Source of the DNA: Streptomyces bambusae
Lineage (GTDB): Bacteria > Actinomycetota > Actinomycetes > Streptomycetales > Streptomycetaceae
Reading direction: 5' to 3'
DNA: 64,000 nucleotides
Assembly: GCF_020532645.1 (NCBI RefSeq)
Contig: NZ_JAJAUZ010000006.1
Span: forward strand, 124,001-188,000
Program-made: the position numbers and the translations under genes
The notes under the pieces: model-generated
What the model saw: only the letters and a program-made list of their open reading frames with translations
The model's database searches: none
What the model was told of the DNA's origin: nothing
Part shown: positions 35,146 to 47,684 of the stretch, in pieces
Layout of the letters: each line of letters opens with the position of its first letter
Position numbering within the stretch: the stretch's first letter is position 1

Positions 35146-37830
35146 ATGGGATACGCCCTGTTCAAGAAGGCCGAGCGCTGGCCGGGAGGCCGTGTTCCGT
35201 ACGAAATCGACGGACTGTCGTTCCCGACCCCCTCGGTGAACCGGTCGGCGATCGATGCCGCGCTCGCCGACTGGAACCGCGACACGATCGTCGACTTCGT
35301 GCCCCGCAACGGGGAGCCGGACTTCATCCGCATCGTGCCGGACGAGGCGAAGGTCGCGTCGCCCGTGGGCCGGAGCGGCGGCGGCCAGAAGGTGGTACTG
35401 GCCGCCTATCCGAGGATCCCGGCCGGCGCGCCGATCTCGACGATCCACCAGCACGGGGACCAGGTCGACTGCCTGTACGCGGATGACAGCGGCGCCATCC
35501 GGGTCATCTGGGTCAACGGGGAGGGGGAGTGGGACGGCCTGGTCGCCCTGACCCCGCCCAACACCGTGGCCCCCGGCGCACCACTGGCCACGGGCCGTCA
35601 GACGGATGACCAGATCGACCTGTTCTTCGTCGACAGGGACCAAGCCGTCAACGTCATGTGGGTGGTCGGCAACGGAACCTGGAACGGGCCCATCAGGCTG
35701 ACGGACCCGGGAAGGAAGAGGATCCCCAGGACCGCGTCACTGGTAACGGCCCGGCAGGGCGATGAGCAGCTCGATCTGTTCTTCATCGACGCCGACGGCG
35801 CGGTGAACGTCATGTGGGTCGTGGGCACCGGACAGTGGAACGGCCCCGTCGAGCTGGCGCCCGACAGCTCGGCTTCGCCGGGTGCGTCGCTGGCCGTCGC
35901 CCAGCAGACGGAGGGGCAGCTCGACCTGTTCTACGTCGGCGCAGGCATGGACAACGGCGGGATGATCACCGTCGTGTTCGTCGCCGGCAACGGCGCCTGG
36001 AGCGCGCCCATCGGGCTCACCGGACGTGGTGCGGCGTCGATCGTCGCACCGCTGGCCACCGCCCGTCAGACGGACGACCAGATCGACCTCTTCTACGTCG
36101 GCCACGACGGCTCGGTCAACGTCATGTGGGTCGTCGGCAACGGGGCGTGGCAGGGCCCCGTCGGCATCACCGCCCCCGGGGCGGCGAAGTCGGGAGACGC
36201 GCTCGCGACCACCCGTCAGACGGATGACCAGATCGACCTGTTCTTCGTCGACGGGGCAGGCGTGGTCCACGTCATGTGGGTGGAGGGCACCGGCCCATGG
36301 CACCCACCCGTGGGCCTGACACCCCCCGGCACCGCCCTCAGCGGTGGTGCGCTCGCCACCGCCCGGCTGACCGAGAAGCAGATCGACCTCTTCTACATCG
36401 GCACGAACAACGCCCTCACCGTGATGTGGGTGGTCGACAAGGGCAACTGGAACGGTCCCGTCGCCTTCGAACCCAAGGCGGTGAGAGCCGGCAACGTCAT
36501 GCACGAGCTCGGCCATGCGATCGGTCTGCATCACGAGCACGGGCGGCCCGACTCCGTCAACTTCGTGGCCATCGAAGGCGGCACGCCACCGAACTACGGC
36601 CCGGCGGCGGACTCCGCGCCCGTCGGGCCGTACGACTGCGCCTCGATCATGCACTACGGGCCGAGCGCCACCCTCCCGATACTGAGGGTCCTCCCCTCGG
36701 CCGCCTGCGCGGACGCGAAGGTCGGGCAGCGCGACGGGCTGAGCCCAGGAGACATCGCCACCGCCGACTACCTCTACGGCCGCGTGACCGTCCCCGGGGC
36801 GGCGCTGGCCACCGAGAGCCAGACCGACAGTCAGCTCGACGTCGTGTTCGCCGACCGTTTCGGGGCGATCGCCGTGACGTTCGTCGAAGGCGTCGGAGCC
36901 TGGGAAGGCCCCATCGAGCTGACCGCTGCCGGAGTCGTCGAGCCCGGCATACGGATCGCCTGCGCCCGGCAGACGACAGACCAGATCGACACCTTCTTCG
37001 TGGACCGTGACGGCGCCGTGAACGTGATGTGGGTCGTCGGCAAAGGCGCCTGGAACGGCCCCGTCGCCCTGACAGGCCCCAAGGCCGCCCCCAGGAACGC
37101 GGCGTTGGCGACGGCCCGGCAGACCGGCGACCAGATCGACTTGTTCTTCGTCGGCGAGGACGGTGCCGTCCACGTCATGTGGGTGGTCGGTACGGGGGCT
37201 TGGAACAAACCCGTCGCCCTGACGCCGCCCGGCACCGTGCGCAAGGACGCGACGCTGGCCACCGCCCGGCAGGTCGACGACGACGATCAGGTCGACGTCT
37301 TCTTCGTGGACGAGTTCGGTGCCGTCCATGTCGCCTGGGTGGTCGGTACGGGAGCCTGGAACAAGGCCGTCGCGCTCACGCCCCCGGGCACCGCTCCCGC
37401 GAACGCGGCGTTGGCGACGGCTCGGCAGACCGCCGATCAGATCGACTTGTTCTTCGTCGGCGAGGACGGTGCCGTCCACGTCATGTGGGTGGTCGGTACG
37501 GGCGGATGGAACGGGCCCCTCGCCCTCACCCCGCCCGGCACCGTGCGGAAGGACGCGGCACTGGCCACGGCCGGGCAGACCGGCGATCAGGTCGACGTCT
37601 TCTTCGTGGACGAGTTCGGTGCCGTCCATGTCGCCTGGGTGGTCGGTACGGGAGCCTGGAACAAGGCCGTCGCGCTCACGCCCCCGGGCGCGGCCCCCGC
37701 GAACGCGGCGTTGGCGACGGCCCGGCAGACCGCCGATCAGATCGACCTGTTCTTCGCCGACGAACACGGCGCCATCCAGGTCATGTGGGTGGTCGGCACC
37801 GGCAGCTGGCACGGACCGATGGGTCTGTGA
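35146..37830 (+). CDS. Astacin-type (M12A) metalloprotease with two 7-unit propeller-like repeat blocks, one nested in the catalytic domain
   Basis: 894 residues. The N-terminal astacin strand set (RWPGGRVPYEIDG through IRIVPDEAKV, residues 11-88) is followed by seven repeats of about 50 residues (about 90-446; core DQIDLFFVD...VNVMWVVGxGxWNGP). Only then comes the zinc site HELGHAIGLHHEHGRPD (His453, Glu454, His457, His463) and the Met-turn SIMHYG. Seven more repeats fill 547-894. The full astacin consensus HExxHxxGxxHExxRxD is intact, so catalysis is expected. Seven units suggest a seven-bladed beta-propeller in each block (inference). No signal peptide or propeptide is visible from ATG 35146 and none is found in frame upstream. 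AAGAGG precedes the start. Confidence 0.85.
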   Translation: MGYALFKKAERWPGGRVPYEIDGLSFPTPSVNRSAIDAALADWNRDTIVDFVPRNGEPDFIRIVPDEAKVASPVGRSGGGQKVVLAAYPRIPAGAPISTIHQHGDQVDCLYADDSGAIRVIWVNGEGEWDGLVALTPPNTVAPGAPLATGRQTDDQIDLFFVDRDQAVNVMWVVGNGTWNGPIRLTDPGRKRIPRTASLVTARQGDEQLDLFFIDADGAVNVMWVVGTGQWNGPVELAPDSSASPGASLAVAQQTEGQLDLFYVGAGMDNGGMITVVFVAGNGAWSAPIGLTGRGAASIVAPLATARQTDDQIDLFYVGHDGSVNVMWVVGNGAWQGPVGITAPGAAKSGDALATTRQTDDQIDLFFVDGAGVVHVMWVEGTGPWHPPVGLTPPGTALSGGALATARLTEKQIDLFYIGTNNALTVMWVVDKGNWNGPVAFEPKAVRAGNVMHELGHAIGLHHEHGRPDSVNFVAIEGGTPPNYGPAADSAPVGPYDCASIMHYGPSATLPILRVLPSAACADAKVGQRDGLSPGDIATADYLYGRVTVPGAALATESQTDSQLDVVFADRFGAIAVTFVEGVGAWEGPIELTAAGVVEPGIRIACARQTTDQIDTFFVDRDGAVNVMWVVGKGAWNGPVALTGPKAAPRNAALATARQTGDQIDLFFVGEDGAVHVMWVVGTGAWNKPVALTPPGTVRKDATLATARQVDDDDQVDVFFVDEFGAVHVAWVVGTGAWNKAVALTPPGTAPANAALATARQTADQIDLFFVGEDGAVHVMWVVGTGGWNGPLALTPPGTVRKDAALATAGQTGDQVDVFFVDEFGAVHVAWVVGTGAWNKAVALTPPGAAPANAALATARQTADQIDLFFADEHGAIQVMWVVGTGSWHGPMGL
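37300..37750 (+). repeat. Near-identical 300-bp direct duplication inside the metalloprotease gene
   Basis: The sequence around 37309-37389 recurs at 37609-37689, with the 60 bases from 37321 and from 37621 identical, and neighbouring stretches differing at only a few bases. The period is 300 bp, i.e. two repeat units of 50 codons (repeats 11-12 and 13-14). The other units of the gene are much more diverged, so this is a recent duplication or gene conversion. Confidence 0.85.
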
Positions 37831-37860: not shown

Positions 37861-39399
37861 TCAGGCGGTGCCGGAGACCGTGCCGAGGTCGGTCCAGCCG
37901 CCGTTGCCGTCCCCGCCGTTCCAGAGCCGGACGCGGGTCGAGCCGTCGGCGTCCGTCAGGACGTGGTCGCTGTGCCCGTCGCCGTCGAAGTCGGCGAACG
38001 ACACCTGACGGTGATCACTCGTCACTCCGGCAGTCACCGGTCCTGCCGGGACGGACCAGCCGCCGTGGCCGTCGCCGCCCCGGTTCAGGTAGGTGTGCAC
38101 CGAGCCCTCGCCCTGCACGACGGTGTAGTCGGCGTACCCGTCCCCGTCGAAGTCCGTCCACCGCACGCGGGACGGCTCCTTGGTCACTCCCGTGGCGACG
38201 GTCCCGCGGTCCTGCCAGCCGCCCCGGCCGTCGCCGCCCTTGTTGAGGAAGACGGAGACGGGGCCGTCGGGACGGACCCAGGTGTAGTCGGTGCGGCCGT
38301 CGCCGTCGAAGTCCACGAAGCGGACCTGGTCGGCGTCCCGGGTGAGGCCGGTCGCCACGTTGCCCGCAAGCGACCAGCCGCCGTGGCCGTCGCCGCCCCG
38401 GTTGAGGTAGACGGACACCGAACCCGTCTCCGAGAGCCAGATGTAGTCGGCCCGGCCGTCGCCGTCCCAGTCGGCGAAGCGCACCCGCTTGCGGTCCGCC
38501 GTCAGGCCCGTGGCGGTCTGCCCGAGGTCTTCCCAGCCGCCCCGCCCGTCGCCGCCACGGTTCAGCAGGACCCGGACCGCTCCGCTGTCGGCGACCACGA
38601 TGCGGTCGGCGCGGCCGTCGCCGTCCCAGTCCGCCCAGCGCAGCCGGTCGGAGCCGCCGGACTCGGTGCCCGCCCGCCCGGAGTGGGTACGGACCGCCGT
38701 GCCGTCCGTAACGGCCTTGTCGATGCCGTCGAAGAAGGCGTCGCCCATCCGGCGGTGGCCGGCGTCGTTGGGGTGCAGGCCGTCGGCCATCTCGCCCCGG
38801 ACCAGGGCGGGCGCGTCGACGTAGCGGACCTTGGCGCCGGCCTGGGACTTCGAGACGACCCAGTCCTTCACCGCCGAGTTGAAGGCCGGCACTCCGGCCG
38901 GGGCGGAGGACGGGATGAGGCCCATCACCACGACGGTGACACCGGGGCGCGCTGCGAGGATCTCATCGGTCACCGCCGCCAGCCGGGCCGGGGCGTTGGC
39001 CTTGTCGGTCCCGCGGTCCAGGTCGTTGATGCCGTGGTGGAGGAGGACGACGTCCGGCGCGGCGCCGCGCACCCATGCGGCGGCCTTGCCCCGGAAGTCG
39101 TTGATCATGGTGGCGGTGTGGGCCTCGTTGTCCGAGTCCGGTGCCGAGCCCGACTGCCGGGATCCGACGAAGTCGACGCGGAAGCGCGTGTGGGTCTGGG
39201 ACTTCTGCCACAGCGGCAGCCGGTATCCGGCGTTGGAGGAGGTGAGGTACCCGTCGGTGATGGAGTCGCCCAGGGGCATGACGCGCAGCACCGGCGGTGC
39301 GGGCGTCGTGGCGGCGGCCGCGGGGGCCGCTGCCGCTGCGAAGGCGGTGCCGGCGCCGAGTACGGCGGTGGCCGCGAAGGTGGTCAGCTTGTGCAGCAT
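37861..39399 (-). CDS. Secreted SGNH hydrolase with five VCBS/FG-GAP repeats
   Basis: 512 residues. Signal peptide MLHKLTTFAATAVLGAG... to about residue 30. SGNH blocks: MPLGDSIT (Ser46), GINDL (Asn125), and DGLHPN (Asp206, His209), a full catalytic set for a GDSL esterase or acetylhydrolase. From about residue 250 five repeats of about 53 residues with the DxDGDGxxD Ca-binding loop and the xVYLNRGGDGxGGW signature form a propeller-like tail. The same tail follows different heads in the next two genes upstream (39462 and 41196). Probably acts on polysaccharide or lipid esters outside the cell. Confidence 0.9.
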   Translation of the reverse strand: MLHKLTTFAATAVLGAGTAFAAAAAPAAAATTPAPPVLRVMPLGDSITDGYLTSSNAGYRLPLWQKSQTHTRFRVDFVGSRQSGSAPDSDNEAHTATMINDFRGKAAAWVRGAAPDVVLLHHGINDLDRGTDKANAPARLAAVTDEILAARPGVTVVVMGLIPSSAPAGVPAFNSAVKDWVVSKSQAGAKVRYVDAPALVRGEMADGLHPNDAGHRRMGDAFFDGIDKAVTDGTAVRTHSGRAGTESGGSDRLRWADWDGDGRADRIVVADSGAVRVLLNRGGDGRGGWEDLGQTATGLTADRKRVRFADWDGDGRADYIWLSETGSVSVYLNRGGDGHGGWSLAGNVATGLTRDADQVRFVDFDGDGRTDYTWVRPDGPVSVFLNKGGDGRGGWQDRGTVATGVTKEPSRVRWTDFDGDGYADYTVVQGEGSVHTYLNRGGDGHGGWSVPAGPVTAGVTSDHRQVSFADFDGDGHSDHVLTDADGSTRVRLWNGGDGNGGWTDLGTVSGTA

Positions 39400-39461
39400 G
39401 TGTGGTCGTGCCTTCTGGTCGTGCGGGCCTGCGTCCGGCCGGGCCGGATGCGCGGGTGTGT

Positions 39462-41024
39462 TCACGAGGTGTGGGGGACGGGGCCGAGGCGGGTCCAGCC
39501 GGCCGGGTTGGGGTCGCCGCCGTTGAAGGCGTAGACGGTGGTGCCGCCGTCGGCCTCCTGGAGGAGGTAGTCGGCGTGGGCGTCGGCGGTCAGGTCCGCG
39601 AGCTGCACGCGGGTGTGGTCGGTGGTCACCCCGGTCGCGGTCTGGCCGGCGTGGCGCCAGCCGCCGTGTCCGTCGCCGCCGCGGTTGACGTACGTCGTCA
39701 CGCTGCCGTTGGAGTTGACGGTCCAGTAGTCGGCGCGGCCGTCGCCGTCGAAGTCCGCCAGGCGGACCCGGGTGCGGTCGGCGGTGGTGCCGGTGGCGAC
39801 CTGGCCGATGTTCACCCAGCCGCCCGGGCCGGCGGGGTCGCCGCCGCGGTTGAGGTGGACGTTCACGGCCCCGCTGTCGGCGATGGTGGTGTAGTCGGCG
39901 CGGCCGTCGCCGTCGAAGTCTGCGAAGCGGACCTGCTGGTGGGCGCGGGTGGTGCCCCACGCGACCTTGCCGAGGTGCTGCCAGCCGTTGGGGCCGCTGA
40001 CGTCGCCGCCGCGGTTCAGGTACGCCGTGACACCGCCGTCGGGGGCGATGTGGAGGTAGTCGGCGCGGCCGTCGCCGTCGAAATCGGCAAGGCGGACGCG
40101 GGTGCGGTCGGTGGTGACGCCGGTGGCGATGCGGCCGATGTCCTGCCACGTACCGGCGCCCTCCCCGCCACGGTTGAGGCGGGCCCGTACCTCGCCGGAA
40201 TCGGCGATGGTCAGCTGGTCCGTACGTCCGTCGCCGTCGAAGTCGGCCCAGCGGACCCGGTCCGTACCGCCCGACTCGGTGCCGGCCCGCGCGGCGCGGA
40301 CGGGCTTCACCCAGCCGTCGGCCAGCGCGGCCTGCAGGCCCTCGTGGTAGGCGGCGGCCATCTTGCGGTACCCCGCCTCGTTGGGGTGCAGGCCGTCGGG
40401 CAGCTCGGTCGCCACGTCCAGGCGCGGCGACTCGACGTACCGTACGTGCCGGCCTGAAGCGGCGCGCGTGGCCACCGCGGCGCGGAGTTCCCTGTTGAAG
40501 GTGTTCGTACGCTCGAACTGCCCGCGGGTGTCGACCAGCAGGCCCTGGACGATGACGGTCACGCCCGGCTTGTCGGCCTGGATGCGGTCGATGAGCGCGG
40601 ACAGTTCGGCCGCGGCGGTGGCCGGGTCGGCGTTGTGGGAGTTGAGGTCGTTGATGCCGAGGTGGAGCAGGACGACGTCGGGTGCGGCGGCGTTCTGCCA
40701 GCGGTCGATGCCGTCGCGGATGCCCTTGACGGTGTACCCGCTGTGGCCTTCGTTGTCCGGGTCCGGCGCGCTGCCGAAGGAGCCGGACCCGACGAAATCG
40801 GGGGTGTATCCGCTCTGAGCGGTGATCCGCTCCCACAGCGGGGCGCGGTAGCCGGTCAGGCCCGCGCTGCCCTCACCGGCGGTGATGGAGTCGCCGAGCG
40901 GCATGATCCGCAGCAGCGGAGGGGCGGGCTGCGGGGCCGACGCGGCGGAGGGGGCGCCGGCCAGACCGAGCGCGGTGGTGGCCCCGACGAGCAGGGCGGT
41001 GGTCAGAGAGGTGCGGTGCTTCAT
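39462..41024 (-). CDS. Secreted SGNH hydrolase with five VCBS/FG-GAP repeats (paralogue)
   Basis: 520 residues, colinear with the 37861-39399 product. ATG 41024; signal peptide to about residue 30. Ser46 (MPLGDSIT), Asn125 (GINDL), Asp210 and His213 (DGLHPN) are all present, then five VCBS repeats, the last with a degenerate Ca loop (ADLTADAHADY). Heads are roughly half identical by eye while tail repeats are closer, suggesting repeated exchange among tails. It lies 62 bp upstream of the other SGNH gene on the same strand, so they may share a transcript, and is separated from the pseudo-trypsin gene by a strong terminator. Confidence 0.9.
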   Translation of the reverse strand: MKHRTSLTTALLVGATTALGLAGAPSAASAPQPAPPLLRIMPLGDSITAGEGSAGLTGYRAPLWERITAQSGYTPDFVGSGSFGSAPDPDNEGHSGYTVKGIRDGIDRWQNAAAPDVVLLHLGINDLNSHNADPATAAAELSALIDRIQADKPGVTVIVQGLLVDTRGQFERTNTFNRELRAAVATRAASGRHVRYVESPRLDVATELPDGLHPNEAGYRKMAAAYHEGLQAALADGWVKPVRAARAGTESGGTDRVRWADFDGDGRTDQLTIADSGEVRARLNRGGEGAGTWQDIGRIATGVTTDRTRVRLADFDGDGRADYLHIAPDGGVTAYLNRGGDVSGPNGWQHLGKVAWGTTRAHQQVRFADFDGDGRADYTTIADSGAVNVHLNRGGDPAGPGGWVNIGQVATGTTADRTRVRLADFDGDGRADYWTVNSNGSVTTYVNRGGDGHGGWRHAGQTATGVTTDHTRVQLADLTADAHADYLLQEADGGTTVYAFNGGDPNPAGWTRLGPVPHTS

Positions 41025-41103
41025 CACCGGGGTGGGCCTTTCGGGTTCGTCGGCCGCCGGGTCCTGCGCGAGGAGAGCCCGGCGGGGAGGAGGCGGCATG
41101 GGA

Positions 41104-41147
41104 CGGCCGCCCCCCGTCCCGCCGCATGGCAGAACGGGGGGCGGCCG
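41104..41147 (-). terminator. Rho-independent-like hairpin after the pseudo-trypsin gene
   Basis: A perfect 14-bp stem (CGGCCGCCCCCCGT at 41104-41117 with 41134-41147, 16-nt loop) just downstream of the stop at 41196 on the minus strand; it should separate that gene from the SGNH gene at 39462-41024. Confidence 0.8.
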
Positions 41148-41195
41148 GTCGGGCGTGCCCCGTCAGGGGCTCGGCCTGGGAGGGAACGGGACGGC

Positions 41196-43199
41196 TCAGG
41201 TGCCGCTGGCGACGACGCCGATGCCGTTCCAGCCGTTGCCGCCGGCCGGGTCGCCGCCGTTCCACAGCCAGACGGAGGCGCTGTTGCCGTTGCCGGCGAC
41301 GACGTAGTCCGCGTGGGTGTCGGCGTTGAAGTCGACGAACTGGACCTTGGTGTGGTCGGTGGTGGTACCGGTCGCGATCTGGCCCACGACCTTCCAGCCG
41401 GTGTTCGGGACGACGTCGCCGCCGCGGTTGACGTACAGGTCGACCTTGCCGTCGGGCTTGATGAACAGGTAGTCGGCCTTGCCGTCACCGTCGTTGTCGG
41501 CGAAGCGGATGCGGGCGCGGTCGCTGGTCACGCCGGACGCGACCTTGCCGACTGCGGGCCAGCCGTTGCCGGACTGGTCGCCGCCGCGGTTGAGGTACAC
41601 GGAGACCGCACCGTTGTCGGCGAAGGCCAGGTAGTCGGAGCGGCCGTCGCCGTCCCAGTCCGCGAACCGGACCTTGCTCGCGTCGTTGGTGACGCCGTGC
41701 GCGACCTTGCCGATGTGCTTCCAGCCGTTGCCGCCGGCCGGGTCGCCGCCCTGGTTGAGGTACACCTCGACGGAGCCGTCGGTGTTGATGAGGAAGTAGT
41801 CGGCCTTGCCGTCACCGTCGAAGTCCGCGAACCGAACCCGGTTGCGGTCGTTGGTCAGACCGGTGGCCACCTGGCCGATGCCCTGCCAGCCGTTGGAACC
41901 GGCCGGGTTGCCGCCGCGGTTCAGCCAGACCGAGACCGACCCGTTGTCGGCGATGTTGAAGTAGTCGGGCTTGCGGTCGCCGTCGAAGTCGGCCCAGCGG
42001 ATACGGCCGTTGGCGCCGGCCTCGTTGACGGCGGCGGAACGGCGCGAGGTCAGGGAGCCGATCCAGGAGGCCAGGCCGTCGACGCGGGTGTCGTGGGAAG
42101 CGAGCTTGGGTTCGGTCTCGGCGATGCAGCCGCCCTGCCATGCGCGGCTGGTGATGCCGGCGATGAGGGTCTTGCCGTCCACGGTCTGCAGCGCAGGGGA
42201 TCCTGCGTCGCCCTTGCACACGGGGGCGTCCGCCGGAGAGTGGGGCGTGAGGTCGAACCCGGTCTCCGCGACGGCGCCAACGGTGAAGTCGGCCTTGTGA
42301 GCCTGTGCGGGAGCCCAGTGCTGCAGGGTGCGACCGTAGCCGGGAACCGTAACCTTGGCGCCCGCCGCGGGAGCGGTGTCGGAGACACCGACGGGAGCAA
42401 TGGTGAACACCGGCTGCGCCAGCCGGGCCATGACCAGGTCACGGTCGGTACGCGGCACCAGCTCGGTGATCTCGGTGGTGTGCCCGCCGGACGCGTTCAG
42501 GTCCTTGCGCCCGATGGTGAGGACGGTCTTCGCCTTCGGCGCCCCGGCGGCCACGTCGATGCTCTCGGCGGGCTTGTCGGCGAAGCAGCTCTTCGCCGTC
42601 ATCACCCAGCGGGGGTCGACGAGCACGGCCGTGCAGGCGCGCGTCTCGCCGATCCGGAGCTTGCCCAGGTAGGCGTACGGATTCTCCCCGGCCGGCTGCT
42701 GCGGCGTCGCGCTGCCGGAACCGGTGACCCGCATCTCCAGGAGGACGGCCCGCTTGGGGTCGGTCGGATGGGCTTCGCCGAAGCCCTTGGTGGTGTCCTT
42801 GGGGACGTCGAGGTTCTGCGTGCTGCCCTCGATGGAGACGGATGCCTTGATGTCCCGGTCGTTGGTCTCGATCCGGTAGGCGCGCGGGATGTTCACCGAG
42901 AGGTAGCCGGTGTTCGCGGCAGCGAAGCAGATCCTCGACTCATCAGTGAGGAGGTTCCGCGCCCACACCGTGATCTGGTGGCTGCTGGTGCAAGGCGTCT
43001 GTGTGATGTTTCCATCACCGGCGATCAAGTCCGCGCCGGTCGCTGCCAAGGCGGCAGCGCGGTCCGGGTAGGCACCGTCCTCGACAGCGTAAGGCGCGCC
43101 GACAGGGCTGTCGCCGTCTGCCGACATGGCCGGAACGGGTGTCCCCAGGACTACGGCAGTGGCCATGACGGCTACGGGGAGCCGCTTGGGTATGCGCAT
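41196..43199 (-). CDS. Secreted trypsin-like (S1) pseudoprotease with five VCBS/FG-GAP repeats
   Basis: 667 residues. Signal peptide about 1-27 (MRIPKRLPVAVMATAVVLG...). A pre-domain of about 140 residues with two Cys is followed by an S1 chymotrypsin fold. The His57 position reads TAKSC (Ser204 instead of His), the Asp102 position looks kept (DRDLVMARL, Asp254), and the Ser195 motif reads CKGDAGSPAL (Ala332 instead of Ser). So two of three catalytic residues are missing in an intact frame. Residues about 390-667 are five VCBS repeats of the type in the SGNH genes. Probably a secreted binding protein. Divergent from the ALF/Hint toxin gene. Confidence 0.88.
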   Translation of the reverse strand: MRIPKRLPVAVMATAVVLGTPVPAMSADGDSPVGAPYAVEDGAYPDRAAALAATGADLIAGDGNITQTPCTSSHQITVWARNLLTDESRICFAAANTGYLSVNIPRAYRIETNDRDIKASVSIEGSTQNLDVPKDTTKGFGEAHPTDPKRAVLLEMRVTGSGSATPQQPAGENPYAYLGKLRIGETRACTAVLVDPRWVMTAKSCFADKPAESIDVAAGAPKAKTVLTIGRKDLNASGGHTTEITELVPRTDRDLVMARLAQPVFTIAPVGVSDTAPAAGAKVTVPGYGRTLQHWAPAQAHKADFTVGAVAETGFDLTPHSPADAPVCKGDAGSPALQTVDGKTLIAGITSRAWQGGCIAETEPKLASHDTRVDGLASWIGSLTSRRSAAVNEAGANGRIRWADFDGDRKPDYFNIADNGSVSVWLNRGGNPAGSNGWQGIGQVATGLTNDRNRVRFADFDGDGKADYFLINTDGSVEVYLNQGGDPAGGNGWKHIGKVAHGVTNDASKVRFADWDGDGRSDYLAFADNGAVSVYLNRGGDQSGNGWPAVGKVASGVTSDRARIRFADNDGDGKADYLFIKPDGKVDLYVNRGGDVVPNTGWKVVGQIATGTTTDHTKVQFVDFNADTHADYVVAGNGNSASVWLWNGGDPAGGNGWNGIGVVASGT

Positions 43200-43640
43200 G
43201 AGTGTTGTTTTCGCCTTCGGAAAACTCCCACGGCTGCCTGGTCAGGGCGGGTGGGATGACGTAAGTCGGCCCACGTCTGCGTGGGCCGGGCAAGATCGCC
43301 TGGGGAGGTCGCCGAGCAGGATAACCCGACCGCCGGGAGTGCCTTCCACCGCCCGCAGTTTCAAGCCATAAGTAAAGGGGGAGTAAAGCACTCCGGCAGG
43401 CTATTAGCCTTTGATGAAGCCGCGGGATCGCCCCGGCTGAAACAGCAGTTCCGTACCGGGTCCGACCAACCCGGGAAAGGAGCCGGCTGCCCTTAGGCCT
43501 GGGGAGGCCGAATCGTGGAGGGCAGCCGGCGCCGACGGCGTACATCAGGGGGCAATGAAGCCCGCATCCCGGTCAACGACCGGGATGCCGTTCTGTCGTG
43601 CCCGGGATCTGCGCAAGAAGATTACCGAGGGGAACATTCC
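43200..43640. other. Divergent intergenic region with a structured leader for the toxin gene
   Basis: No gene is seen in this 441-bp stretch. It holds three hairpins: 43268-43287 (8-bp stem, 4-nt loop); 43482-43530, where a 12-bp perfect outer stem (GCCGGCTGCCCT with its complement) encloses a 5-bp inner hairpin with a GGGG loop; and 43564-43588 (11-bp perfect stem, AAC loop). The last two lie within 160 bases upstream of the toxin start and could be an attenuator or riboswitch-like leader. An AT-richer patch (43369-43390, AAGTAAAGGGGGAGTAAAG) may hold promoter elements. Confidence 0.6.
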
Positions 43641-46600
43641 GTGCTTCGCATCAGAAGCCGGCGTGCCACCGTGTGGGGGCGCGGATACGCGATGGCTGCA
43701 AAAGCCAGCCGCGGTCTGCTGCCGCTCGCCCTGGCCGCCGGACTGGTGTCGGCGACACCTGCCGTCGCCGAGGAACCAGGCACTCCACAGCTGTCCAACC
43801 GCGAACGCGCCTTGGCCAGCTGGAAAACGGGCGGCCCGGCCGTCAAGGCTGCCGCCGGCGCCGCCCTCGTCGGCGACGACGAGAAACTCCGCCTCTTCAT
43901 CCAAGAGGGCCAGAAGGTCGCCGAGGACCTCGACCTCCGCGAGGCCGCACTCAAGCTCGTCACCGAAGCCGGCCCCGGCCTGAGCGAGGCCGCCCGCACG
44001 GCACTTGACGGTACGCCCGACCAGCTGGCCGCCTTCATGAAGGACGGCTGGAAGGCTCCGCTCGCCGACGACCAGCGGGTCGAAGCAGCCCGGATCACCG
44101 AAGGCGGTGGTCCCGGACTGCGCGAGGCCGGCGACAAGGCCATGAAGGGCTCCCTCGACGACATCAAGGTGTTCCTGACCGAGGGCCAGTACCGCCAGCG
44201 CGATGACGACGCGCGCGTCCGCGTCTCCCAGATCGAGACATCCGGTGGTCCCGCCACCAAGCGTGCTGCCGCGGCAGCGCTCAAGGGTTCGATCGAGGAC
44301 GTCCGCGAGTTCCTCACCTATGGTCAGCACATCGCTCGGGCCCAGGACCAGGAACACGCCACCATCACGGACCTGGCGCAGCAGACCAAGGACGCGCAGG
44401 CGGCGGCTGAAAAGGCCCGCAAGAGCGCGCAGGAACAGGCCGAAAAGGCCAAGACTGCTGCCGCCCTGGCAAAGCAGGAGACGGCAAAGGCGGCCGCCGA
44501 GACCAAGGCCGCCAAGGGTGACGCCCTCCGGGCCGCGGACGCAGCCCGGAGAGCAGCCGAGTCCGCCCGCCGGGCCGCCTCGGCCGCCCGTACTGCCATC
44601 TCCGCCGCCCGCGCGGCAAATGCTGCCGCCGAGACGGCTGCCGTGGCCGCCCACAACGCCGCCACCGCCGCGCTGTACGCCTCCCAGGCCGCCAGCCGTG
44701 CGTGGGACGCAGCAGCCTCCGGCAAGGTGCACGAGAACATCGCCGCCAACGCCCAGCGCGCTGCGGACGAAGCAAGCAGGATCGCGGACTCGGCCGACGC
44801 GGTCCGGAAGACCCTCGCGCACTCCACCGACGCGCTGGACGCCGCGCTCTCGGCCATCGACGACATGAACGCGTCCGCCGACCTGGCGGGCGAGGCCGGC
44901 GACTGGGCCAAGCAGTCCGGCGTCCACTCCGGCCAGGCCGCGGCTGCCGCAGCTTCCGCTCGGCGCCACGCCGCAGAGGCCAAGCGGGCCGCTGCCGCAG
45001 CTCGTTCGCACGCCAATGCTGCAGCAGGTGCTGCCCAGGAGGCGGCCACCGCCGCCCGCTCGGCTGCCGACCACGCTCGCAGGGCCGCCACCGCAGCCCG
45101 CAACGCGGCCCAGCACGCAGGCAACGCCCAAGCCGCCGCCAACGCGGCCAAGGTCAATGCCGGCGAAGCCATGGCAGCCGCAGACAAGGCCGGCGCCGCG
45201 GTCAAGCAGGCCCAGGAGGTCCAGCAGAAGGCCCGCCAGCGTGAGGCGGAAGAAGTCGCCGCCCGCACCAACACCCAGGTCAACGAAGCCCGCGACGCCA
45301 AGGACCTCTACGACCAGGCCAAGTCCGAGGCGAAGCGCCTCTTGGATGCGCGGACCAAGCTGGAAAGCGACTTCGTCCAGCTCGCCATCCAGGCTGAACA
45401 GCCCGGTGCGAAGCCGGCAGACATCGCCGCCGCCGGCCGCAAGATGGCCCTCACGGCTCTGGAGGTCCGGGGCCCCTGGTCCCGCGCGGCTGCCGAAGCC
45501 GCTCTCGTAGGCGCCGACGCGGCCGTCATCGCCTACGCCACCGACGGCTGGAAGAAGGCCAACGAGCAGGACGAGCGTCAGCAGGTCAACCAGATCGCCC
45601 AATCCGGGGATTACGACGACGTGCGCAAGGCCGCCGTCGCCGCCCTCGCAGGCACCGCTGCCGATGTGCGTGCTTTCCTGGCCACTGGCCAGTATCAGGC
45701 CGCGGCCCCCGACCGCCGTATCGAGGTCGCCCGCATTGCCGAAGCGGGGGGACCGGGGGTGAAGGATGCGGCCTCGGTTGCACTGAAGGACGCCAACCCC
45801 AAGGCGCTCGAGCTGTTCCTGGCGACAGGTCAGCACCGGGCACGGCTGGAAGACGACCGTGTCGAGGCGGCCCGCCTCGCCGAAGGCGGCACCCCCGAAC
45901 TCAAGGCCGCTGCCGAAACGGCGCTGGCCAGCCCCGACACGCTCTTGCGGACCTTCATCGAGTCCGGCCAGCACCGCGCCAAGCGACGAGACCAGCTCAA
46001 CGCGGCCCACGTCGCCGAGGTGAAGGCGATCATCGCCGCCGCCAGCCAGGTCTCCGCGCTCGCCTACCAGGATGCCTACAAGGCGGCGAAGTCGGCGGCT
46101 GATGCTCAGGGCTACGCCGACGAAGCCTCCGGTCACGCGAAGAAGGCCGACGAGTACGCCGCCAAGGCGAACGGCTACGCCACCCAGGCGCGGCAGTCGG
46201 CCGACGAAGCTCGCAGGTCCTCCGACGCCGCAGCGGGATCCGCAGCCACGGCGACCAAGGCCGAGCGTCAGGCCGCCGACAGCGCTGAGCGCGCGGAGTC
46301 TTCCGCCACCGCGGCATACGCGAGCTCCCTGGCAGCCGCTGACTACGCCGAGAGTGCGTACACGGCCGCCGAGCAGGCGCGTGTCTCCGCTGCGAACGCC
46401 GGTATGAGCGCTCAGGAAGCGCAGGTCAAGCACCAGCAGACCGTTCAGCGCTACATGATCGATGAGTACAACAAGGAGGTCCAGCGACAGCAGGCCGAAG
46501 CAGCCGAAGCGAAGAAGCGCAGCCTGATCAAGATCGGTGTGGGCATCCTCACCTTCGCCGTGACAGGCCAGCTGCCGCCGGACACACCGCTCGGCGTCCG

Positions 46601-47684
46601 ACTCGACGTCCTGCACGGCTTGCTCGACGTCATCGGACTGATCCCAGGAATCGGCGAAGTCGCCGATGGGGCCAACTGCGCCATCTACGCCATCGAAGGC
46701 ACGGTCCAGTACTTCCACCCCATCGGCCGCGAAGGCGCCTGGATCGACGCCGGCCTGGCCTGCGCCTCGATGATCCCCGTGGCCGGCTGGGCGACGACAC
46801 CCGCCAAATGGGCTCGCTACGCCGAGAAGTACGGCCCCGACGTCAAGAAGGCCTTCGACGACCTCTCCGACCTGGCCCGGAAGACGCCCGGCGTCTGTCC
46901 CGTACGTGGGAACAGCTTCCCGGCGGGCACCCGTGTGCTCATGGGGGACCGGTCTGCCAAGCCCATCCAGGACGTGCAGGAGGGCGACTTCGTACTCGCG
47001 ACCGACCCCGTGTCCGGGCTGACCGGACCGCGGCGTGTGGTGGCGACCATCTACACCCCCGACGACCGGGACTTCACCGATGTCACCCTGGAAGGGGACA
47101 GGGCGGCGTCCGTCACCGCCACGGACCACCACCCGTTCTGGACGGAGAACACGCGGACGTGGACCGACGCGGCAGAGGTAGAGGTCGGCGACACGCTGCG
47201 TACGGCCTCTGGTGCCATGGCACGGGTCGGTTCGGTGCGGCACTGGAAGACCCTGCAGCCTGCCTACAACCTGACTGTCGACGACCTGCACACGTACTAC
47301 GTGCTCGCCGGTCGGACTCCCGTTCTGGTCCACAACACCAACGGTCCGGTTCCCTGTCCGCGTGTTCCCTGGCTGTCAGGCAGGTTGCCCGCGGCTGAGG
47401 AAGCAGCGCTCAACGACACGCTGGCTCACATCGCTGCCGGCACGGTGCCCACCGGACCGACCAGCATCAAGTGGGGGACCAAGTTCAACAACCGGGCCGT
47501 TGACCTTCCCGGCGGCGTGGGTGAGCACTCCCCCTACCTGGAATACCGTGTCGCACCGCCCCCGGGCACTTCGGGTGCTGGTCCGCTGCGTGTGGTTCGC
47601 CACCAGTACACTGGTGAAACCTATTACACGTGGACCCATTACGGCGATAACAACGTCAAGCCAGCCTTCGTGCGAGTTCGGTGA
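43641..47684 (+). CDS. Polymorphic toxin: ALF repeats, Ala-rich coiled coil, Hint domain, C-terminal guanyl-type RNase
   Basis: 1347 residues from GTG 43641 (GAGGGGAAC upstream); ATG 43692 is an alternative. Secretion leader hydrophobic core at about 24-43. Short ALF-type repeats (AFxxxG, FxxxG) span about 50-240 and 594-797, with long Ala-rich coiled coils between and after them to about 960. A hydrophobic pretoxin segment (VIGLIPGIGEVADGANC) at about 985-1015 precedes a Hint domain (NSFPAGTRVLM at 1091, ending VLVHN near 1232). The last 115 residues resemble RNase Sa/barnase: FNNRAVDLPG, YLEYRV (Glu1301), LRVVRHQ (Arg1317) and YYTWTHYG (His1333), the Glu-Arg-His catalytic set. A barstar-like gene follows after 3 bp. 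Confidence 0.85.
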   Translation: MLRIRSRRATVWGRGYAMAAKASRGLLPLALAAGLVSATPAVAEEPGTPQLSNRERALASWKTGGPAVKAAAGAALVGDDEKLRLFIQEGQKVAEDLDLREAALKLVTEAGPGLSEAARTALDGTPDQLAAFMKDGWKAPLADDQRVEAARITEGGGPGLREAGDKAMKGSLDDIKVFLTEGQYRQRDDDARVRVSQIETSGGPATKRAAAAALKGSIEDVREFLTYGQHIARAQDQEHATITDLAQQTKDAQAAAEKARKSAQEQAEKAKTAAALAKQETAKAAAETKAAKGDALRAADAARRAAESARRAASAARTAISAARAANAAAETAAVAAHNAATAALYASQAASRAWDAAASGKVHENIAANAQRAADEASRIADSADAVRKTLAHSTDALDAALSAIDDMNASADLAGEAGDWAKQSGVHSGQAAAAAASARRHAAEAKRAAAAARSHANAAAGAAQEAATAARSAADHARRAATAARNAAQHAGNAQAAANAAKVNAGEAMAAADKAGAAVKQAQEVQQKARQREAEEVAARTNTQVNEARDAKDLYDQAKSEAKRLLDARTKLESDFVQLAIQAEQPGAKPADIAAAGRKMALTALEVRGPWSRAAAEAALVGADAAVIAYATDGWKKANEQDERQQVNQIAQSGDYDDVRKAAVAALAGTAADVRAFLATGQYQAAAPDRRIEVARIAEAGGPGVKDAASVALKDANPKALELFLATGQHRARLEDDRVEAARLAEGGTPELKAAAETALASPDTLLRTFIESGQHRAKRRDQLNAAHVAEVKAIIAAASQVSALAYQDAYKAAKSAADAQGYADEASGHAKKADEYAAKANGYATQARQSADEARRSSDAAAGSAATATKAERQAADSAERAESSATAAYASSLAAADYAESAYTAAEQARVSAANAGMSAQEAQVKHQQTVQRYMIDEYNKEVQRQQAEAAEAKKRSLIKIGVGILTFAVTGQLPPDTPLGVRLDVLHGLLDVIGLIPGIGEVADGANCAIYAIEGTVQYFHPIGREGAWIDAGLACASMIPVAGWATTPAKWARYAEKYGPDVKKAFDDLSDLARKTPGVCPVRGNSFPAGTRVLMGDRSAKPIQDVQEGDFVLATDPVSGLTGPRRVVATIYTPDDRDFTDVTLEGDRAASVTATDHHPFWTENTRTWTDAAEVEVGDTLRTASGAMARVGSVRHWKTLQPAYNLTVDDLHTYYVLAGRTPVLVHNTNGPVPCPRVPWLSGRLPAAEEAALNDTLAHIAAGTVPTGPTSIKWGTKFNNRAVDLPGGVGEHSPYLEYRVAPPPGTSGAGPLRVVRHQYTGETYYTWTHYGDNNVKPAFVRVR

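Follow-up and report, generated by a model that had tools for sequence, protein, structure and literature searches.

An open reading frame in the 64,000-nucleotide stretch of Streptomyces bambusae DNA analysed here (the window) encodes a zinc-protease motif lying between two blocks of repeats. The original prediction was that this is an astacin with one of the repeat blocks set inside its catalytic domain. This raises the question of whether one catalytic domain is really interrupted by a lectin-like module, how the layout is distributed, and what it may serve. As read from its sequence, the frame is one astacin (M12A) domain in two pieces with a lectin-like propeller nested between them, and a second propeller forms the end of the protein (Table 1). 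The nested layout combines known families in a new way, with neither a new fold nor new chemistry.

Table 1. Features of the nested astacin gene, with positions in the window.
Feature	Residues	Positions	Strand	Basis
Whole gene: astacin split by one propeller lectin, then another	1-894 (894 aa)	35146..37830	+	ORF exact; AGAGG just upstream of ATG
N-terminal part of astacin domain (strands and backing helix)	9-88	35170..35409	+	Pfam Astacin positions 1-73 matched by residues 11-86
Inserted BP39L-like seven-bladed propeller (predicted)	90-445	35413..36480	+	7 units; profiles; 6gxr match, model range 95-442
C-terminal part of astacin domain	446-545	36481..36780	+	Pfam Astacin positions 79-186; model helices
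Zinc-binding motif HELGHAIGLHHEHGRPD	453-469	36502..36552	+	Motif intact
Met-turn SIMHY	500-504	36643..36657	+	Motif intact
Second, C-terminal seven-unit propeller, BP39L family (predicted)	547-894	36784..37827	+	7 units; BP39L 444.3 bits; phmmer to 6gxr

The whole protein scores 76.8 bits against the Pfam Astacin profile (cut-off 22.5), and the match falls into two stretches. When residues 1-89 were scanned alone, they matched profile positions 1-73 with 30.7 bits; residues 446-546 scanned alone matched positions 79-186 with 56.5 bits (matched residues 448-544). Both scores exceed the same cut-off. Since the two matches complement each other without overlap, the halves complete one astacin domain, and from this complementarity we infer that residues 9-88 pack on residues 446-545 as one domain. 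For the original prediction to hold, the zinc domain should be incomplete without residues 11-88; the zinc half does miss the first 73 profile positions, and the N-terminal segment supplies them. In a profile search of the window's own genome, the two pieces lay in one open frame with about 1.04 kb between them, and no further Astacin match reached E 0.01 there.

The zinc ligands of the HEXXHXXGXXH motif are H453, H457 and H463, and the Met-turn carries the zinc tyrosine; both elements are intact, as originally predicted. Directly after H463 stands E464, the family-specific glutamate. The available text of a 2023 review of astacins (PMC9848320) places this glutamate right after the zinc motif and gives EXXRXDRD as a motif typical of the family. 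The latter is partly kept: E, R and the first D are present (EHGRPD), and SV replaces the final RD. A Peptidase_M10 match of 16.4 bits is below the cut-off of 24 and covers 15 residues only; the protein is not a member of the matrixin family. The catalytic domain begins at about residue 9, with no earlier in-frame ATG, GTG or TTG and no FXGDI motif. As judged by reading, no signal peptide is evident in this protein or in the second nested protein described below. In the core plan of animal astacins, as the available text of the review gives it, a signal peptide and a pro-segment precede the catalytic domain (PMC9848320). Going by its sequence, the window protein does not follow this animal-type plan of a secreted zymogen, and its M12A assignment rests on the catalytic domain.

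The repeat blocks were examined with a core pattern of the unit, which occurs 14 times: seven copies start at residues 106-412 and seven at residues 563-865, with a spacing of 50-54 residues within each block. In 2000 shuffles of the protein the mean was 0.005 copies and the maximum one copy, and chance repeats were rejected. The claim of seven units on each side of the zinc site was reproduced by this count, and the block limits proposed with it, 90-446 and 547-894, are correct to within a few residues. All 14 units have a tryptophan in the last strand, in the form W-x-x-P/A in 13 of them and W-x-x-L in one. Pfam labels the blocks FG-GAP-like. Both the insert (266.7 bits) and the C-terminal propeller (284.8 bits) pass the cut-off of 200 of the NCBIfam beta-propeller lectin profile (NF052348). 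Against the profile of the BP39L family lectin (NF052349, cut-off 400), the C-terminal propeller passes with 444.3 bits; the insert, with 276.8 bits, fails. The whole protein scores 774 bits with the latter profile, which is the sum over both propellers; an assignment of both to BP39L from this sum was dropped after the separate scans, and the insert is BP39L-like only. Using phmmer, we found the BP39L lectin of PDB entry 6gxr at 4.8e-83. The two propellers of the window protein are 55% identical to each other. Within the C-terminal propeller, units 3 and 5 are 86% alike and units 4 and 6 are 88% alike, which suggests the recent copying of a two-blade unit. According to the available text of PMC6943638, PLL-type lectins bind fucose, and some O-methylated sugars, between the blades with a stacking tryptophan, and their pockets may accept non-sugar ligands too. 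By analogy with this family, both propellers would be expected to bind sugars.

The AlphaFold2 model of residues 1-546 reached a pLDDT of 79.1 and a pTM of 0.69 with an alignment of 15 rows. The window contributed four of the rows, which take in most of the second propeller, and seven astacin loci contributed 11; P0002, the orthologue described below, was left out. Earlier alignments smeared the N-terminal astacin half into the propeller, and the alignment used was chosen among several row sets since known motifs lined up. Because of this choice, the model rests on a motif-picked alignment in which most of the second propeller was treated as related to the first. With single-sequence AlphaFold2, the full chain of 894 residues reached a pLDDT of 33. 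In the model of residues 1-546, strands are predicted at 16-21, 50-53, 60-65 and 80-85 and a helix at 31-46, followed by the blades at 97-441 and then by the helix 448-458, which bears the first two of the zinc histidines. No strand of at least three residues is assigned at the place of the short strand 4. The first propeller is thereby predicted to sit between strand 80-85 and the active-site helix; the strand order and this helix are described for astacins in the available text of PMC9848320. Residues 446-545 hold the zinc site and the Met-turn and, in the model, the active-site helix and a C-terminal helix at 534-543.

The modelled insert matches 6gxr with a Z score of 48.2 (rmsd 1.6 A over 342 residues, 36% identity) and the PLL/PHL lectins with Z scores of 36-39. 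Prolyl endopeptidase 2bkl stands at Foldseek ranks 49-50. No astacin or MMP is among the best 50 matches listed of each of the two fold searches; propellers filled both, which makes them uninformative on the catalytic part. A seven-bladed fold of the insert is predicted by the model, and the seven units and the phmmer match to 6gxr point to the same fold for the second propeller. The profiles, the 6gxr match, the model and a second genome support the original prediction of two seven-bladed propellers with one inside the catalytic domain; for the second propeller, this support is at the sequence level. Both repeat blocks resemble BP39L, PLL and PHL by profile, and the insert also by structure match. 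In contrast to the solved chains, which by their titles are lectins, the two propellers here are built onto and into a protease.

Gelatinases offer a comparison for this site. In MMP-2 and MMP-9, fibronectin modules are inserted after the fifth strand (available text of PMC10702220); the gelatinase layout and MMP exosites are covered in the accessible parts of PMC10531186 and PMC7771667. The likeness is one of topology, in that strand 5 and the active-site helix flank the insert, in the window protein by the model. However, gelatinases belong to family M10 and not to M12A, they carry three gelatin-binding fibronectin type II modules where the window protein has a seven-bladed lectin-like propeller, their C-terminal propeller has four blades instead of seven, and their propeptide is absent here. 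By analogy, the window protein may work like a gelatinase, and it is not a member of that group. The reading we prefer, with a probability of roughly one half, is a lectin-guided astacin metallopeptidase for glycosylated substrates. One catalytic domain would be built from residues ~9-88 and ~446-545, with a BP39L-like lectin in the loop before the active-site helix and a second lectin on the C terminus. The propellers, with up to about 14 putative inter-blade sugar sites, would keep glycan-bearing substrates, or the surfaces of cells, close to the cleft. The zinc site would then cut the protein attached to the held glycan, much as the fibronectin modules serve gelatinases. The proposal presumes sugar binding, substrate holding, activity and release from the cell.

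We compared the window protein with 21 other astacins found by the zinc-motif pattern, a count restricted to loci that fit this motif. In 16 of the 21, the GR of strand 4 and HExxH are 21-23 residues apart, versus 378 and 372 residues in the two nested proteins; the distance pattern is silent in the other five, whose printed stretches have no insert by reading. In 12 uninterrupted domains, a cysteine before strand 4 is invariant and a cysteine in the loop from strand 5 to the helix nearly so. We take these two to correspond to the Cys64-Cys84 disulfide of crayfish astacin. The window protein, with cysteines at 109, 498, 521 and 606, has lost both, and P0002 keeps the first (C70) without the second. 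The loop between strand 5 and the helix may have become free when such a disulfide was lost.

Four of the related loci (L008, L010, L012 and L057) resemble the window protein in that propeller-type repeats follow the astacin domain. They differ in that the catalytic domain is continuous, a FEGDI-bearing pro-segment is present and the repeats are of another kind (in L012 by reading). The repeats that follow the domain comprise seven DUF346 stretches in each of L008 and L010 and three in L057; with the propeller-lectin profile L008, L010 and L057 score 60.8, 73.3 and 71.1 bits, below its cut-off of 200. L008, L010 and L012 belong to the same genus as the window, and L023 also carries an N-terminal segment with FEGDI. 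As a separate observation, L008 (1312-3171, minus strand), L010 (859-2718, minus strand) and L057 (1240-3153, plus strand) exceed the NCBIfam LegP cut-off of 300 with 343.6, 353.9 and 305.1 bits. LegP is a family named after a Dot/Icm effector, and these three loci come from the window's genus or class.

The pro-segments of L008, L010, L012, L057 and L023 bring up the idea that the inserted propeller takes the place of a pro-segment, as a gate or latency device capping or tightening the cleft until a ligand or a partner binds. The domain of the window protein starts at residue ~9, and the FEGDI of the relatives agrees with FXGDI, a motif with an aspartate that blocks the zinc in animal astacin zymogens (available text of PMC9848320). 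The same chain order occurs in prolyl oligopeptidase, an enzyme with a buried active site, where the hydrolase domain comprises residues 1-71 and 428-710 and the seven-bladed propeller residues 72-427 (available text of PMC5446394). This S9 peptidase is like the window protein in having a seven-bladed propeller nested after ~71 residues of a discontinuous peptidase domain; it differs in being a serine alpha/beta-hydrolase and in having no second propeller. To our knowledge, its propeller is not a lectin. However, locus L040, by reading, has neither a pro-segment nor an insert, and we consider a gate unlikely. It is also conceivable, though quite improbable, that the protease is switched by sugar: a glycan on the inserted propeller would shift the adjoining active-site helix and turn the zinc site on, replacing the pro-segment. 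If this were true, metzincins would have used the loop between strand 5 and the active-site helix twice independently as a ligand-sensing port.

An Astacin match at E 0.01 or better was present in 105 of 394 genomes of the family, many of the matches being weak or partial. The profile was split by about 1 kb within one frame in two of these genomes, namely the window's own and G465, which is from another genus. The search for the same nesting in other actinomycetes, suggested with the original prediction, thus yielded a second case in the same family. In the family scan, 17 matches run unbroken over Astacin positions 1 to 186-187 and span 543-576 bases. Genome G572 has two nearby astacin pieces, but these are 38 bases apart and were rejected as a nested layout. 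The G465 protein, P0002 (883 aa), aligns end to end with the window protein at 59% identity and has 7 + 7 units. Because a protein so similar in another genus shares the nesting, the layout is no assembly accident, and an assembly chimera was ruled out.

The inserted propellers of both proteins are 61% identical, the counterpart at the same position being the best or tied-best match for six of the seven blades, and the catalytic halves are 62-63% identical. A common origin of the nested layout has good support from these sequences for the insert and the catalytic halves. For the C-terminal propeller it is weakly supported: identity is 56% across the proteins versus 55% within one protein, and the best partner is at the same position for one blade of seven. 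The blades of this propeller seem to have been copied among each other. The dN/dS between the two nested proteins (Nei-Gojobori) is ~0.48 overall and 0.45-0.64 for the four parts, values that are only rough because of the strong GC bias. No common gene neighbour was apparent between the window locus and G465, with a home-made gene caller and by eye, the G465 neighbours being unannotated.

These comparisons bear on the notion of a tolerated accident, in which the propeller was duplicated into a surface loop and has no special role, or the enzyme is dead. Such an origin would fit the very rare layout, the 55% identity of the two propellers and the loss of both cysteines (one of them in the orthologue) and of the RD of the family motif, in place of which P0002 has AS. 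Yet both proteins keep all zinc ligands while 41% of their residues differ, and the overall dN/dS also speaks against an accident, which we regard as very unlikely.

Among 392 genomes of the genus, some match to the window protein was found in 16, and a full-length match only in its own genome. Full-length matches were likewise confined to its own genome in 394 genomes of the class, 41 relatives and 198 genomes of the phylum. In the genus of G465, one of 70 genomes has a full-length match. The Pfam Astacin profile matches in 30 of the 394 class genomes, in two pieces only in the window's own. These genome sets overlap and are samples, and in the genus, class and phylum searches no more than 2 to 4 candidates were scored in each genome. 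A scan of GTDB contigs added L023 and L024, two astacins without the nesting. Ten plasmid records have a match, none covering 80% in one place, and the viral contigs hold some astacins and no lectin relative. The layout is known from two proteins in the genomes sampled, and a nested astacin was not found in the literature searched. The available text of PMC9848320 gives astacins a catalytic domain of ~200 residues and accessory domains, and in its main text, as available, the words 'propeller', 'insertion' and 'Streptomyces' do not occur. Section 2.3 of the review describes astacins in bacteria as occurring sporadically, for the most part in hosts that live in close contact with animals, whereas 105 of the 394 family genomes scanned here have a match.

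Propeller-lectin repeats are also joined to other proteins. In L022 (1-2496), repeats of this likeness lie C-terminal to an M14 carboxypeptidase and score just below the propeller-lectin cut-off, and L007 (40-2482) resembles it by reading. In L056 (601-2412), such repeats lie C-terminal to a CAP-domain protein and score above the cut-off. On the basis of these three loci, propellers of this kind recur as added modules in related genomes. That like propellers sit at the C terminus of proteins as unlike as those of L022 and L056 agrees with a role as anchors (adhesins) on glycans of the producer or of a neighbour, in which case the insertion site would matter little for catalysis. But an anchor is already there at the C terminus, and two lineages have retained the insert at a precise site, so that we think it improbable that the propellers are simply anchors.

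For the lectin-guided metallopeptidase, we count the complementary halves, the intact HExxHxxGxxH, E464 and SIMHY, both propellers above the propeller-lectin cut-off, the match of the modelled insert to solved lectins, the conserved tryptophans, the 59% identical orthologue, the blade-by-blade agreement of the inserted propellers, the dN/dS of ~0.48, an insertion at strand 5 as in MMP-2/MMP-9, and the same-genus L008 and L010 with their seven DUF346 repeats after an uninterrupted domain. Against it we count the EXXRXDRD motif lacking RD, the insert below the BP39L cut-off, the weak orthology of the C-terminal propeller, the possible non-sugar ligands of PLL-type pockets, and only two proteins of this layout. 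The BP39L-like status of the insert and the weaker case of the C-terminal propeller leave the odds of this mechanism unchanged. If it holds, the metzincin loop between strand 5 and the active-site helix would have taken up a 350-residue module in an astacin and fibronectin modules in MMP-2/MMP-9, and a bacterial enzyme would become available for testing what an inserted exosite does. Work on glycoproteins could also profit from a natural protease with as many as 14 putative sugar sites.

The astacin gene adjoins, on the opposite strand, three consecutive hydrolase genes (37864-43199, minus strand) for two GDSL lipases and a trypsin-like protease, each with FG-GAP repeats. They are followed on the plus strand by an open reading frame of 1389 aa (43515-47684) with ALF repeats and a PT-HINT pretoxin domain.
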